Below, piece by piece: positions 11,398-20,318 of a stretch of DNA of 64,000 nucleotides. The stretch lies in contig NZ_CP125854.1 of NCBI RefSeq assembly GCF_030169785.1, forward strand, positions 1,798,001 through 1,862,000, given 5' to 3'. How positions within the stretch are numbered: position 1 is the stretch's first letter; every line of letters starts with the position of its first letter. The position numbers and the translations under genes are program-made. The notes under the pieces were generated by a model, which searched no databases, was not told where the DNA came from, and was given only the letters and a program-made list of their open reading frames with translations. Source of the DNA: Bdellovibrio sp. 22V (GTDB lineage: Bacteria; Bdellovibrionota; Bdellovibrionia; Bdellovibrionales; Bdellovibrionaceae).

Positions 11398-11661
11398 CTA
11401 GGAAATGTACTTCGTGATTTCTTTGATCTCGTCAAGATCGATATCTCTGTGATTTCCATCCAGGCAGTGTTCGATATGATCGTGAATGTAAACACTCTTT
11501 GCCGCAGCAAGAGCTTTCACGACAGCGTGAAGCTGCCTGGCCACGTCCACACATTCTCGCTCGTCTTCAATCATAGCAATAACGGTTTCAAGATGCCCTT
11601 TGGCTCTTTTTAAGCGTTTCGAGACATCTTCATGACTTGCGTGTTGCTTTTTGTGTGACAT
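11398..11661 (-). CDS. CsoR/RcnR/FrmR-family metal-sensing repressor
   Basis: This 87-residue all-helical protein matches the DUF156 family of metal- or formaldehyde-responsive repressors: RLKRAKGHLETVIAMIEDERECVDVARQL followed by a second helix with HDHIEHC. Cys37, His62 and Cys66 fall at the classic C-H-C ligand positions used by CsoR-type copper sensors. His3 is also present, as in RcnR nickel/cobalt sensors, so the metal cannot be fixed from sequence. The gene is divergent from the ferroportin gene with only 50 bp between them, and that gap holds a G/C-tract palindrome of the type these repressors bind. It most likely controls itself and ferroportin. Confidence 0.88.
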   Translation of the reverse strand: MSHKKQHASHEDVSKRLKRAKGHLETVIAMIEDERECVDVARQLHAVVKALAAAKSVYIHDHIEHCLDGNHRDIDLDEIKEITKYIS

Positions 11662-11670
11662 GTTGGTAAG

Positions 11671-11690
11671 TATCCCCTCCCGGGGGATGG
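11671..11690. promoter_or_regulatory. Candidate operator for the CsoR/RcnR-type repressor
   Basis: ATCCCC (11672-11677) and GGGGAT (11683-11688) form a perfect inverted repeat with a C/G-rich centre. Known RcnR and CsoR sites are G/C tracts flanked by A/T half sites of this sort. It lies between the two divergent start codons. Confidence 0.6.
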
Positions 11691-11711
11691 GATGTCAATA
11701 GGGATGGAAAA

Positions 11712-13007
11712 ATGTTAAAGATTGAAACACAGCTGCTGGTTGGAAGGCTTTTGACGAGATCTGGAGACCAAGCTTGGGACTTTGTGATTCCCTTTGCTTT
11801 GCTTCATGTGTTTCCAGGAAAGCTGCAGATCGCAGCGTTCTATTATCTTCTCATAAAAATCGGTTCCTTTTTATTAACTCCCTGGGTGGGGAAGTGGATT
11901 GATTCCAATCAACGCAACCGCGTCGTAAAAAACGGCATCTGGATTCAGTTCTTCGCTGTTCTGGGGGGTGTCTTCTGTTTTTACTTCTTGGACGGAGCGG
12001 TTCATCGCCAATGGGCGTACTTTGAAGGAAACGGAGTGATTGTTTTTCTTTTTGCCCTGCTTGCGATTTTTGGCATCTTTGCTTCGTTAGGCTCGCTGAT
12101 CACGGATATCTCTGTGGGGAACGATCTGGCGCCCGCGTTGGTTTCTTCCGACAAATTGACAGAGTTCAATAGTTGGTTGCGACGGATTGATTTAGGGACG
12201 GAGGTTGCGGCTCCGATTGTCGCGGGGATTTTGTTCGCTTTAGATTCCGTGCATGTTCATCTCTTGGGTTTGTGGCTTGTAGCGCTTTGGAATCTTATTT
12301 CTTTTGTGCCCGAGTACATCCTTCTTCTAAATGTCATCAAAGTTTCAGGACTGCAGAGCAAAGAGATTGAGGCCCCTAAAACTTGGAAAGAGCTCTTTCA
12401 TTTCAATATCAAAGAGTCGGTTGCGAATCCCATTTTTTGGCTGATCTTCAGTTATGCGCTGTTGTGGCTATCCGTTTTAAGTCCGCATGGGGTTTTGCTC
12501 GCGGGATATTTGCAAGACGAGATGGCCTTGCCCGAGGCGCAAATAGGATTATTCAGAGGACTTGGTGCCGTCTTCGGTCTTATTTCAACGGTGACCTTTC
12601 CCTATTTTGTTCACAGATGGGGTTTGATCGGAAGCTCGAAGCTGCATTTAGGATTTCAAGGCGTGATGCTTGTGATGGGGATTGTCGCCTTCGCAGTGGG
12701 ATCAACAACGGGCATCTATATTTTTCTTGTTTGTATTCTGTTTTCGCGCATTGGTCTTTATGGGTTTTCAAACGGCGAGTTTGAATTAAGGCAGCGTCTT
12801 ATTCCCGAAAGAAAACGGGGAGAGTTGAATTCACTCAGCTATCTTACGACAACGATGGCCACTCTTGTGTTATTCGGCGCGGGCAGTCTTTTGCCCGGCA
12901 CTCAGGATTTTAAATATTTAGTGTATGGCTCGCTCGCGGCCGTTCTTATCGCAAATGTCGTTTTCCTAAGATGGGCTGACAAGAATAAGGCCGCCGCTCG
13001 CGATTAG
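11712..13007 (+). CDS. Bacterial ferroportin homologue (MFS metal exporter)
   Basis: This 431-residue protein is very close, over its whole length, to what I recall of BbFPN from Bdellovibrio bacteriovorus, the bacterial ferroportin of known structure. It has about 12 membrane helices. The first helix carries LLTRSGDQAWDFV, whose Asp19 aligns with the helix-1 metal ligand Asp24 of BbFPN. Other matching segments are LTEFNSWLRRIDLGTEV, SVLSPHGVLLAGYLQDEM and FSNGEFELRQRLIPE. The predicted role is export of Fe2+ or related divalent metals across the inner membrane. A divergent metal-sensing repressor and a palindromic operator lie directly upstream, suggesting metal-induced expression. Its stop overlaps the convergent gene by four bases. 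Confidence 0.92.
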   Translation: MLKIETQLLVGRLLTRSGDQAWDFVIPFALLHVFPGKLQIAAFYYLLIKIGSFLLTPWVGKWIDSNQRNRVVKNGIWIQFFAVLGGVFCFYFLDGAVHRQWAYFEGNGVIVFLFALLAIFGIFASLGSLITDISVGNDLAPALVSSDKLTEFNSWLRRIDLGTEVAAPIVAGILFALDSVHVHLLGLWLVALWNLISFVPEYILLLNVIKVSGLQSKEIEAPKTWKELFHFNIKESVANPIFWLIFSYALLWLSVLSPHGVLLAGYLQDEMALPEAQIGLFRGLGAVFGLISTVTFPYFVHRWGLIGSSKLHLGFQGVMLVMGIVAFAVGSTTGIYIFLVCILFSRIGLYGFSNGEFELRQRLIPERKRGELNSLSYLTTTMATLVLFGAGSLLPGTQDFKYLVYGSLAAVLIANVVFLRWADKNKAAARD

Positions 13008-17063: not shown

Positions 17064-20000
17064 CTACGGATCGAAGACTTGCTCCCAGAAAGGGAGAACA
17101 CCAAAGGTTGAATTGTCACCGCCATAGACCATGAGATGGCCATTAGATAAAAGCGTCGCCGTATGAAGCGCACGTGCTTCTTTTAACGGTGTTGCCAACG
17201 CCCATTGATTTGTCTCTGGATTATAAACTCGTACATTAGCGTCGCTGCTAGTGTCGCTTCTCGTACCTCCCGTAACGACAATCTCCCCAGAGGGCAGAAG
17301 ATTCGCGATTACATATTGAATGGGCGTATCAAGAGGGGGTCCCGCGGTCCAGGTGTTGGTGTCTGGATCATAAATTTCTGTGCTGGCAAGAGTTTGACCA
17401 TCCAAAACGTTGACTCCTCCGATCACCATAACTTTGCCAGAGAGTAGGCGTATCGCCGCATGGTAAGCGCGTTGAGCTGTCATGGAGACGACTGCAGTCC
17501 AAGTGTCGGTCGAAGGCTGATACGTCACGTTTCCGTAAGCGCCGATGAATAAATATTTATCGGAATTCAACGGTATGACAGCGTCATAAAGCCCGTTAGG
17601 TCGGTCCGCCGAAGCTGTGCACGTTCCCGTAACGGGATCGCAAATTTCATTTTTCGTCGTAATATCTGTCGTATTGATCCCACCAGAAAGCAGAACTTTT
17701 CCATTGGGCAATGCGATTGCACTATGAGCAGCACGCTCCATAAGCAATGGCATCGTGGTGATCGTATTTGTGCTTGGATCGAAGATATCGGCGGTCTGAT
17801 TATAACCTAAACCACCTCCGGCACCTGAGCCACCAGCGATAAATACTTTTCCGGAAGCTAAAAGTGTCGCGGTATGATTTTGTCGTGGGGTTGAAAGATC
17901 GGGACCTTTCTGCCACTGATTTGTCGCAGGGTTGTAAATCGCGGTGCTGCCAATAATTTTTGTGCCCTCATTTCCGCCAGTAACTAAAATTCTGCCGTCT
18001 TTAAGAAGAGTCGCGATATGCGCGCCTCTTCCGGGTAAAAGTGGAGGCACTTGCCATTCTTCCGCAGCGGCAACGCCTGCACGGTACGACTCCACACTCG
18101 TCATGGCATTGTAGGGATCGGCACCGCCGATGATCAGGATGCGTTGATCTTCCAGCGTAACAACAGAAGGCAGGCCGCGAGCGTTGTTTAAAAGTCGGGT
18201 GTCAGTACTCCAAGTGTTAGTGACAGGATTATAGATTTCAGATGTGGCGTAAACGTTAGCCGTTGTAGCCTGTCCGCCAAACACGATGATTTTTCCGTCG
18301 GGCAAAGTGGCTGCTCCGGCAGAGTTGCGCGCCGTCGTCATTGCGGGGCCCGGCTGCCACGTATCCGTTGCGACATCATAAATCTCGACGGAGCTTAAAG
18401 CGCTGCTTGAGTTATATCCGGCAGCGACGAAAATTTTTCCGCCCATGCGAACCGCGGCGTGGGCGACTCGGCCTGTAGTCATTGAAGCGCCAATGGTCCA
18501 CGTGTTTGTAGCAACGTCATAAATTTGTGCCGCTGTAAGATAGGTGGCGGTTTGGCCGCCGATGACGACGACTTTTCCTCCGGCCCCTCCCGGGACGAGT
18601 GTTGCTGAAGGATAATAACAAGGTGTTGGCATGTTGGCGCCAAGGCTCCACGTGTTGGTGTCTGGATCATAGATCTCAACTTCAGCGGGCCGTATGCTGC
18701 CGCCGAAGTCTCCAGTTCCACCTAAGACAAGAACTTTTCCATTCGGTAAGAGAGTTGCCGTGTGCCCGGAGCGAGCCTTAGTTAACAAAGGCCCTGCAGT
18801 CCACGTGTTTGAATCGGGATCATAGATGTCTGTCGTATTTAAAATATTCGCCGAGTCCTGACCGCCAACGACAAGCACTTTTCCGTTCTGTAAAACAGTG
18901 GCGGTGGCACGGGCTCGTGGGGCCGTAGAGTCCGCGCCTGTACTCCACGTGTTGGTCACAGGATCAAAGATTTCAGTCGTTACGGGATAACCCAAGCTTG
19001 GTGATGTATAAACACCGCCAGCCACCAGCACTTTGCCATTTTTTAAAAGGGCCGCAGTAGGAATAAAACGTGCGATGGACAAGCTGGCTTCGGATTTCCA
19101 GAGGAACCCCGATATATCCAGTTTTTCCGGCGTCGTCACAGGAGAGTTGTAGTTCGTTCCTGGAAGTCCGCCAAGAATAACCAAATATTTGCCTGCGATG
19201 TTCGCCGTATGCAGATAACGAGTGCTGCTTTTAAGACTCGCGAAGGTTTCCCACTGATTTGCAGCGGGATCGTAAATCATCGTGTCTTGATAAGTACTTG
19301 TGTCGGAACCACCACCGACAACAAAAACCCTGTTGCCAACCAGAGTCGCCGTATGAAGTTTACGGACAGCTGGCATGGCGGGACCATTTGAAAACGAACC
19401 GACGGCTCCAGCCGTGGGATCGTACACAGTGGTATCTGCAAGTAACGTCAGATTGTCCATTCCACCAATGATAACGACTTTACCATCAGGGAGCAGAGTG
19501 GTCGTGTGATCTTTTCTGGATTTTGTCAGTGAAGGACCTGCAGCCCATGTATTCGAGGACGGAGTATAAAGGGCTGTCGTTACAAGCGTTGAAGTGTTTC
19601 TCCCGCCTACGATGAAGACCTTACCGCTCTTAAGTACGATTGCGCTATGGTTTGCTCGTTGTGCTGTCATGCTCGCAGCGGAGGCCCACGTGTTGGTTGT
19701 AGGATTATAGATTTCAACACTGCTGATATAATTTGCCGTTACGAGAGATATAGAATTCTCCGTTCTGCCGCCAGCGACCATCACACGTCCATCCGGAAGA
19801 AGTGTGGCTGTGTGAAAACAACGGCCCGTTGTCAAAGAAGCAGCCGAACTCCACGTGTCGGTACTTGGGTCATAAAGAGACGCGGTAGCAAGGCACGCAG
19901 TGGTGATGACATTGTTAATGGCTCCGCCGATGAACAAAACTTTTCCATTCTGAAGCAAGGTCGCCGTGTGACTAAGTCGTTCTTGGGGAAGAGACGCTGC

Positions 20001-20318
20001 TTGCGACCAAACACCTGTCTCTGGATCATAAATTTCCGCACTGGAAAGAGCGAGGTTGGTTGGTGTGGTACTCCTATTGAGGGCTCCGCCCGCCACAAGA
20101 ATTTTTCCGTTTGGAAGAGTCGTCGAGGTATTCAGAACGCGAGCGATTTGCGGATATTGAACTCTGAGGAGCTTTGAAGAGTTGAGGGTGTTATCAAGGC
20201 TTGGAAGGTCGGTGATTTCCTCGGAAGCATCTATGGCCACTTCCAAAGTACAGCCGTTCAGCAACGGCATAGTAATAAATAATATAGTCCAAAGGACTGA
20301 ACCGATTACGTTCCTCAT
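17064..20318 (-). CDS. Kelch-repeat lipoprotein, 21 repeats
   Basis: This 1084-residue protein has a lipobox (PLLNGC, Cys23). Nearly all the rest is a regular array of about 48-residue kelch units with the pattern ATLLxxGKVLVxGG, then Y(D/N)PxTNTWxxxxxM and a final R/H-A/T turn. I count 21 glycine-pair strands, which would make three seven-bladed propellers. Such lipoproteins usually present binding surfaces on the outer membrane; the ligand is unknown. The lipobox context (CTLEVAIDAS) resembles that of the small lipoprotein at 21403. A FliA-like promoter lies just upstream with almost no leader, and no Shine-Dalgarno sequence is visible. Confidence 0.9.
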   Translation of the reverse strand: MRNVIGSVLWTILFITMPLLNGCTLEVAIDASEEITDLPSLDNTLNSSKLLRVQYPQIARVLNTSTTLPNGKILVAGGALNRSTTPTNLALSSAEIYDPETGVWSQAASLPQERLSHTATLLQNGKVLFIGGAINNVITTACLATASLYDPSTDTWSSAASLTTGRCFHTATLLPDGRVMVAGGRTENSISLVTANYISSVEIYNPTTNTWASAASMTAQRANHSAIVLKSGKVFIVGGRNTSTLVTTALYTPSSNTWAAGPSLTKSRKDHTTTLLPDGKVVIIGGMDNLTLLADTTVYDPTAGAVGSFSNGPAMPAVRKLHTATLVGNRVFVVGGGSDTSTYQDTMIYDPAANQWETFASLKSSTRYLHTANIAGKYLVILGGLPGTNYNSPVTTPEKLDISGFLWKSEASLSIARFIPTAALLKNGKVLVAGGVYTSPSLGYPVTTEIFDPVTNTWSTGADSTAPRARATATVLQNGKVLVVGGQDSANILNTTDIYDPDSNTWTAGPLLTKARSGHTATLLPNGKVLVLGGTGDFGGSIRPAEVEIYDPDTNTWSLGANMPTPCYYPSATLVPGGAGGKVVVIGGQTATYLTAAQIYDVATNTWTIGASMTTGRVAHAAVRMGGKIFVAAGYNSSSALSSVEIYDVATDTWQPGPAMTTARNSAGAATLPDGKIIVFGGQATTANVYATSEIYNPVTNTWSTDTRLLNNARGLPSVVTLEDQRILIIGGADPYNAMTSVESYRAGVAAAEEWQVPPLLPGRGAHIATLLKDGRILVTGGNEGTKIIGSTAIYNPATNQWQKGPDLSTPRQNHTATLLASGKVFIAGGSGAGGGLGYNQTADIFDPSTNTITTMPLLMERAAHSAIALPNGKVLLSGGINTTDITTKNEICDPVTGTCTASADRPNGLYDAVIPLNSDKYLFIGAYGNVTYQPSTDTWTAVVSMTAQRAYHAAIRLLSGKVMVIGGVNVLDGQTLASTEIYDPDTNTWTAGPPLDTPIQYVIANLLPSGEIVVTGGTRSDTSSDANVRVYNPETNQWALATPLKEARALHTATLLSNGHLMVYGGDNSTFGVLPFWEQVFDP

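Follow-up and report, generated by a model that had tools for sequence, protein, structure and literature searches.

A DUF156 repressor and a divergent ferroportin gene in Bdellovibrio sp. 22V as a putative metal efflux switch, most likely for cobalt or nickel

The stretch of Bdellovibrio sp. 22V DNA analyzed here (64,000 nucleotides; the window) carries a ferroportin gene divergent from a csoR-like gene, and the two probably form a one-repressor, one-exporter metal switch, most likely for Co/Ni, a reading to which we give a probability of roughly 0.6. In the proposed mechanism, the apo form of the DUF156 repressor would occupy a palindrome between the genes and block both csoR and ferroportin. 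A transition metal rising in the cytoplasm would then bind C37, H62, and C66, probably together with an N-terminal histidine (H7 or H10), the metal-bound repressor would release the DNA, and ferroportin would export the metal, with Co(II)/Ni(II) the most likely effector and cargo. Judged from sequence, local control of ferroportin by the DUF156 repressor is very probable, and Co/Ni is slightly favored as the main effector; DNA binding, metal release, the direction of transport, and the identity of the metal are what we infer from the arrangement. The features of the locus are as follows.

11398-11661, minus strand: csoR-like gene encoding an 87-amino-acid DUF156 repressor (PF02583, 75.9 bits; cut-off, 22.8)
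11712-13007, plus strand: complete ferroportin gene (SLC40 family), 431 amino acids (PF06963, 201.5 bits)
11672-11688, no strand: putative operator core ATCCCC-TCCCG-GGGGAT, type-2 layout with two G/C tracts, ATCCCCTCCCGGGGGAT
11669-11698, no strand: conserved block AGTATCCCCTCCCGGGGGATGGGATGTCAA, defined by the information content of alignment columns
11669-11698, minus strand: candidate csoR promoter TTGACA-N18-GATACT (10/12 consensus matches) with the operator inside its spacer
11692-11718, plus strand: conserved ATGTCAA start, in the ferroportin frame elsewhere and out of frame in the window, where it reads MSIGMEKC and a stop

Open reading frames and Pfam profiles place the two divergent genes, the 50-bp gap between them, and the palindrome where a preliminary description of the window had located them, and the PF02583 score bears out its assignment of the repressor to the CsoR/RcnR family. 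A genome search found no second DUF156 protein in the genome of the window, and the ferroportin-linked protein is the sole member there. The ferroportin is an ortholog of the crystallized BbFPN (Bd2019) of B. bacteriovorus (5AYM), with residues 1 to 425 of 431 aligned at an E value of 6.6e-187. Its metal-site residues are T15, D19, N194, S197, F198, E201, H259, and R346, and residue comparison reveals that T20, D24, N196, S199, F200, H261, and R348 of BbFPN are all retained. In liposomes, BbFPN is reported to move Fe, Co, Mn, and Ni (PMC4633820), and it is reported to bind Ni-EDTA through H261 (PMC6079014); the physiological substrate of ferroportin in B. bacteriovorus was called unknown in 2025 (PMC11890741). 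The ferroportin of genome G003 is identical to BbFPN over residues 7 to 427 and lies beside the same csoR gene and operator, indicating that the crystallized protein comes from a locus of csoR-ferroportin design. A term search of the text of PMC4633820 returned no occurrence of CsoR, RcnR, repressor, or operon. On the other side of csoR, a 910-amino-acid protein with RCC1 repeats (PF13540 and PF00415; 8659-11391) is encoded facing csoR and ends six bases from its stop, and a 1,084-amino-acid protein with many Kelch-like repeats, as judged by eye from the translation, lies at 17064-20318.

In an alignment of 14 repressor sequences, the CsoR-type X-Y-Z ligands, which are C37, H62, and C66 in the window, are invariant, as are H7, S9, H10, H60, and H65; the window repressor has RLKR at residues 16 to 19. 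His3, which had been proposed as a further ligand, is not conserved, being replaced by Asn in G012, by Glu in G069, G070, and G079, and by another residue in G202, and the N-terminal histidines kept throughout are instead His7 and His10. The AlphaFold monomer model comprises the three DUF156 helices (mean pLDDT, 84.2), and DUF156 proteins make up all of its top 18 PDB matches, the nickel sensor InrS (5fmn) being the best and the only one with an E value under 0.001. The "A" position, as its meaning in the CsoR family is set out in PMC4235346, is E36 in the window repressor; a Tyr is found there in none of 25 ferroportin-linked DUF156 rows versus 25 of the 28 other rows compared (from 44 other matches). 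The RcnR/DmeR H-C-H-H ligand set is absent from the window repressor, as it has Cys66 at Z and a lysine (K5) aligned with W. The best NCBIfam match is RicR at 40.8 bits, far below the cut-off of 175. The cysteine/histidine pattern is described as no predictor of the metal in the CsoR family (PMC4235346).

Among characterized systems, the nickel-responsive InrS-nrsD of Synechocystis shares with the window the C-H-C set accompanied by an N-terminal His, the missing "A" Tyr, and the best fold match. InrS is reported to sense Ni through C-H-C plus an N-terminal His (PMC7055735), the latter being described as not essential for Ni binding (PMC4235346). The two differ in that His21 of InrS aligns with K5, whereas the invariant histidines at positions 7 and 10 of the window repressor are out of register with it, and in that InrS controls a nickel exporter, ferroportin being another exporter family. 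The CsoR-copA systems of M. tuberculosis, B. subtilis, and S. lividans resemble the window in the DUF156 fold, the C-H-C ligands, the type-2 two-tract operator, and the RLxR motif, but the window repressor lacks the "A" Tyr, its operator ends in TAT/AT and not in TAC/GTA, and its partner is ferroportin rather than CopA/CopZ. The Co/Ni efflux systems DmeR-DmeF and RcnR-RcnA likewise consist of one DUF156 repressor beside one exporter and differ in combining H-C-H-H with a type-1 operator, while the window has C-H-C and type 2; in relatives, ferroportin lies downstream of a DmeR-like gene. Beside ferroportin, a small and degenerate DUF156 paralogue is encoded at L097:4810-5070, L100:3151-3552, L104:3544-3855, and L105:5002-5316; it retains C-H-C and, by eye, has lost the RLxR motif, and it is possibly a non-DNA-binding partner or a metal buffer.

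The ATCCCC-N5-GGGGAT palindrome that had been put forward as the operator is present in the gap: ATCCCCTCCCGGGGGAT has one match in the window, with 0.00 expected from 100 shuffles, and across the 3.6-Mb genome no site other than 11672-11688 has the form ATCCCC-N3..6-GGGGAT. Of 24 genomes of the genus, the 11 with the divergent pair each have a single ATCCCYTCCCNGGGGAT among their listed matches and the 13 without it have none, counts that describe restriction to these sites and not an independent prediction, since the operator forms were set after the loci had been viewed. Two of these 13 genomes (G004 and G014) have ferroportin without csoR, with no ATCCCYTCCCNGGGGAT among the matches listed. 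The confinement of ATCCCYTCCCNGGGGAT to 11 of 11 genomes with the pair indicates a palindrome beyond chance. Outside the genus, the operator of the four divergent loci is recognizable with an altered center; the operator place of G069 and G079 falls outside even the loose search pattern. The palindrome block is recognizable across all 15 divergent loci described below, and the flanks drift on both sides.

ATGTCAA is the only string identical in 15 of 15 divergent loci, and in each of them its ATG, on the side of ferroportin, comes directly after the palindrome. At the 14 loci other than the window, ATGTCAA is in frame with ferroportin and lies 28 to 32 bp from the csoR start, so that the gap is shorter there and the operator is practically common to both genes. 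In the window, the ATG at 11692 is out of frame and is followed by a stop after 8 codons, which may be either real or a sequencing error. The candidate csoR promoter is supported by its conservation, with GATAAT-like forms on the minus strand at other divergent loci, and not by the promoter scan, which gave 3 promoter-like sites in the region versus 2.0 in shuffles. An mRNA from this candidate promoter would have almost no leader. The scan reported no ferroportin promoter at the gap; a ferroportin -10 element may lie beside the left tract. No Fur box stands out, as the best match is 11/19 in the window and 10 to 13 in the 15 loci, compared with a random mean of 10.9. A riboswitch upstream of ferroportin was sought with Rfam at gathering scores in 17 of 36 loci, yielding one tRNA only, and the window's gap showed ordinary RNA folding (z, 0.45).

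Ferroportin was searched for in 368 genomes of the phylum Bdellovibrionota, 34 of which match the profile, 33 of them above the cut-off. After removal of the fragments G058:C21 and G212:C66, 35 ferroportin loci from 33 genomes were compared together with flanks of at most about 4 kb per side, the start being missing from locus G070a. A DUF156 gene lies near ferroportin in 22 of the 35 loci. The divergent pair of the window type accounts for 15 of them and recurs in three families (11 loci belong to the genus, one to a second family of the same order, and three to a third family), making the regulation of ferroportin by the adjacent repressor, as first suggested in the preliminary description, likely. 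Six further loci (G048, G058 twice, G062, G119, and G128) have a DmeR/RcnR-like gene on the strand of ferroportin, and G035 has one degenerate DUF156 copy downstream. No DUF156 gene was found in the stretch at the other 13 loci, some of which lie at contig edges. Within the family, 16 of 22 ferroportin windows contain a DUF156 gene versus about 0.05 genes expected by density, these genomes being related and not independent. In the midpoint-rooted ferroportin tree, csoR-divergent loci and DmeR/RND loci are split by a branch with support of 94/90. Spread of the pair on plasmids found no backing in PLSDB, which contained no match. An additional ferroportin gene from an uncultured bacterium, detected in a contig scan and outside the 35-locus count (L025), has 485 bases upstream without csoR and a half-operator-like AGGGGGATGTGTTGTCAAT at the ferroportin start (L025:300-530), perhaps a remnant left after repressor loss.

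The second regulator type has its own operator. Sites of the TATA-CCCC-TATA type (type 1) number five in 297 kb of loci, and all five lie upstream of a DmeR-like gene; five of the six DmeR-like/ferroportin loci have such an operator, while the site in G058b deviates. Like ATCCCYTCCCNGGGGAT, this form and the TACCCC-N3-GGGGTA form given below were chosen with the loci in view, and their counts describe the same kind of restriction. These sites resemble the repeat ATAGGGTACCCCCCTATGCTATG reported for dmeRF of S. meliloti (PMC6044271). A phylum search with one DmeR-like regulator gave 63 matches in 54 of the 368 genomes, of which the 31 best scoring, apart from G042:C72, were read. Among these 31 of 63, 17 have a CDF protein as the neighboring co-directional exporter, 7 a NicO protein (by Pfam), 4 ferroportin alone, and 3 an unassigned one. 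The CDF proteins are 46 to 57% or fully identical to the DmeF of G119, except that of G034 at 23% (generic only), and of six NicO proteins compared with the Ni/Co efflux model, two score above and four below the cut-off. In the near-identical G119 and G128, the gene order is regulator, DmeF, and ferroportin; the G119 DmeF scores 350 bits against a cut-off of 250, and the regulator combines H3, C35, H60, and H64, the RcnR/DmeR H-C-H-H set, with a type-1 operator.

DmeR is reported to respond to Ni and Co (PMC7055735). S. meliloti dmeRF is reported to be induced by Cu as well as Ni/Co, although the dmeF mutant was not sensitive to copper (PMC6044271). That the second regulator type is partnered with DmeF and NicO favors Co/Ni, and as read from gene order and homology, ferroportin takes the place of Co/Ni exporters or shares it with them. 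Against Co/Ni, a DmeR-NicO pair coexists with a csoR-ferroportin pair in G069 and G070, an arrangement that would be redundant if both exported Ni/Co. A complementary distribution of ferroportin and DmeF/NicO was also considered and proved weak: ferroportin is absent from all seven genomes of the family that have NicO or a DmeF above the cut-off (chance P, 0.058), and DmeF and ferroportin occur together in 3 genomes of the phylum versus 5.3 expected (P, 0.19).

The Cys at the X position, reported as conserved in all characterized members (PMC5016687), is present in 27 of the 31 DmeR-like sequences and is missing exactly in the four with ferroportin as the sole co-directional exporter, where it is replaced by Glu in G048, Pro in G062 and G058b, and Ala in G058a. 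The four regulators are located as follows.

L102:3687-3956: Cys-less DmeR-like regulator, Glu at X
L104:3204-3500: Cys-less DmeR-like regulator, Ala at X
L107:5219-5488: Cys-less DmeR-like regulator, Pro at X
L144:1501-1770: Cys-less DmeR-like regulator, Pro at X

In the regulator tree, built from short proteins and with many weak branches, G048 falls within the NicO-linked group (91/91) and the G058/G062 group lies apart (100/99), positions from which the Cys was likely lost twice. The absence of the Cys from these four regulators counts against a simple Co/Ni account, since the metal that acts as effector may differ there, with Fe(II) or Mn(II) a fair guess. On their other side, the Cys-less regulators are flanked by an RND operon in G058 (two loci) and G062 and by a GDT1 gene in G048, which may also be under their control. 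The gene for the GDT1 divalent cation antiporter is divergent from a DmeR-like gene at L102:2862-3458 (G048, with ferroportin) and at L148:1831-2451 (G042, with NicO).

The preliminary description had left the metal open among Cu, Ni, Co, and Fe; its view that the regulator hints at the metal holds, and the range can be narrowed, with Cu(I) disfavored and Co/Ni favored. For copper, the repressor would be a CsoR-type Cu(I) sensor and ferroportin part of copper efflux, a quite improbable arrangement in our estimate. C37-H62-C66 does match CsoR of M. tuberculosis, the best NCBIfam match is RicR despite its low score, and the sole DUF156 protein of the window's genome coexists with three heavy-metal P-type ATPases. 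However, a second CsoR adjoins a CopA-like ATPase at seven loci of the genus (L034, L039, and L041 to L045), six of which also have CusA-like pumps (ATPases and pumps named from translations), and the ferroportin pair is present as well in five of the seven genomes (G003, G006, G009, G010, and G023); the window's genome has no second CsoR, and the separation is not visible there. The second CsoR has a Tyr before its first Cys, and the operator TACCCC-N3-GGGGTA precedes 11 of the 12 other csoR genes examined in the genus. The ferroportin repressor has neither the Tyr nor this operator, which disfavors Cu(I): its TATCCCC...GGGGATG lacks the TAC-N9-GTA dyad, and a TAC/GTA operator dyad is reported to be required by CsoR of S. 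lividans (PMC3902906). In addition, the absence of any further operator-form site from the genome means that there is none at the P-type ATPases, and copper is not among the metals that the transport passages of PMC4633820 name as moved by BbFPN.

A serious rival to Co/Ni, although we consider it unlikely, is that the repressor senses Fe(II) or Mn(II) and that ferroportin, turned on when that metal is in excess, exports it, with DUF156 replacing control of the Fur/MntR type. The ferroportin-only DmeR-like regulators have shed the soft Cys, probably in two losses, and keep His3, His60, and His64, the DmeR-NicO system is separate in G069 and G070, and the gene divergent from the regulator in G048 is a cation antiporter; BbFPN moves both metals, and its crystals show bound Fe(II) (PMC4633820). 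However, the window sensor retains two Cys alongside one His, a ligand combination known from sensors of Cu(I) and Ni(II), DmeF lies within the ferroportin operon in G119 and G128, and GDT1 is divergent in G042 too, from a DmeR-NicO pair whose DmeR has kept its Cys. To our knowledge, there is no iron-sensing DUF156 member. The sensors of this family named in PMC5016687 are those for Co/Ni, Cu, persulfide, and formaldehyde. A Zn/Cd or broad divalent stress signal, with ferroportin helping CzcCBA-type pumps, is very unlikely. RND genes do lie in the stretch of 10 of 35 ferroportin loci (BLAST cluster), three of the ten are profiled as CusA/CzcA family (two above the cut-off and one cut piece below), and one outer-membrane channel is confirmed in G035, but the DmeF and NicO partners indicate Co/Ni, and similar RND genes flank the Cu-type CsoR too, so this class of pump names no metal; RND neighbors were ruled out as a metal clue because CusA/CzcA-like pumps are also found beside Cu-type CsoR. 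The notion that the repressor regulates itself only and that ferroportin is a mere neighbor draws on the overlap of the candidate csoR promoter with the operator and on the scan having given no ferroportin promoter at the gap; it appears highly improbable, because two repressor branches are repeatedly linked to ferroportin, in differing gene orders, and because the palindrome stands just before the ferroportin-side ATG at all 15 divergent loci.

Returning to Co/Ni, the bacterial ferroportin may be a pump made mainly for the expulsion of these metals. Such a role would agree with homologues in fungi and plants, as the fungal one is reported to confer Ni, Co, and Ga resistance with no role in iron homeostasis in the account of PMC11890741, which names plant homologues too, and would hint at what ferroportin did before becoming the animal iron exporter. 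A doubtful and tentative extension is that, in Bdellovibrionota, ferroportin has moved as an efflux pump into the DmeF/NicO slot under DUF156 control and that iron export came later. Where ferroportin became the sole co-directional output, the DmeR-like sensor would have shed its Cys on two occasions and turned into a thiolate-free DUF156 sensor of altered specificity, possibly the first of its group for Fe(II)/Mn(II). No report tying a bacterial ferroportin to a CsoR/RcnR repressor was found among the openly licensed PMC papers listed, and as far as the searches of that literature go, the module type is known and ferroportin as its output is new. The sensor and operator beside ferroportin make the substrate question testable by simple induction, and BbFPN, a structural model of human ferroportin, gains a biological context. 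As a further observation on csoR surroundings, in the operons at L108, L111, L113, and L114, whose csoR is divergent from ferroportin, csoR is followed by genes for a small protein, a HupE/UreJ_2 membrane protein, and a DUF6488 protein, identified by profile at L108 and by BLAST cluster at the other three.
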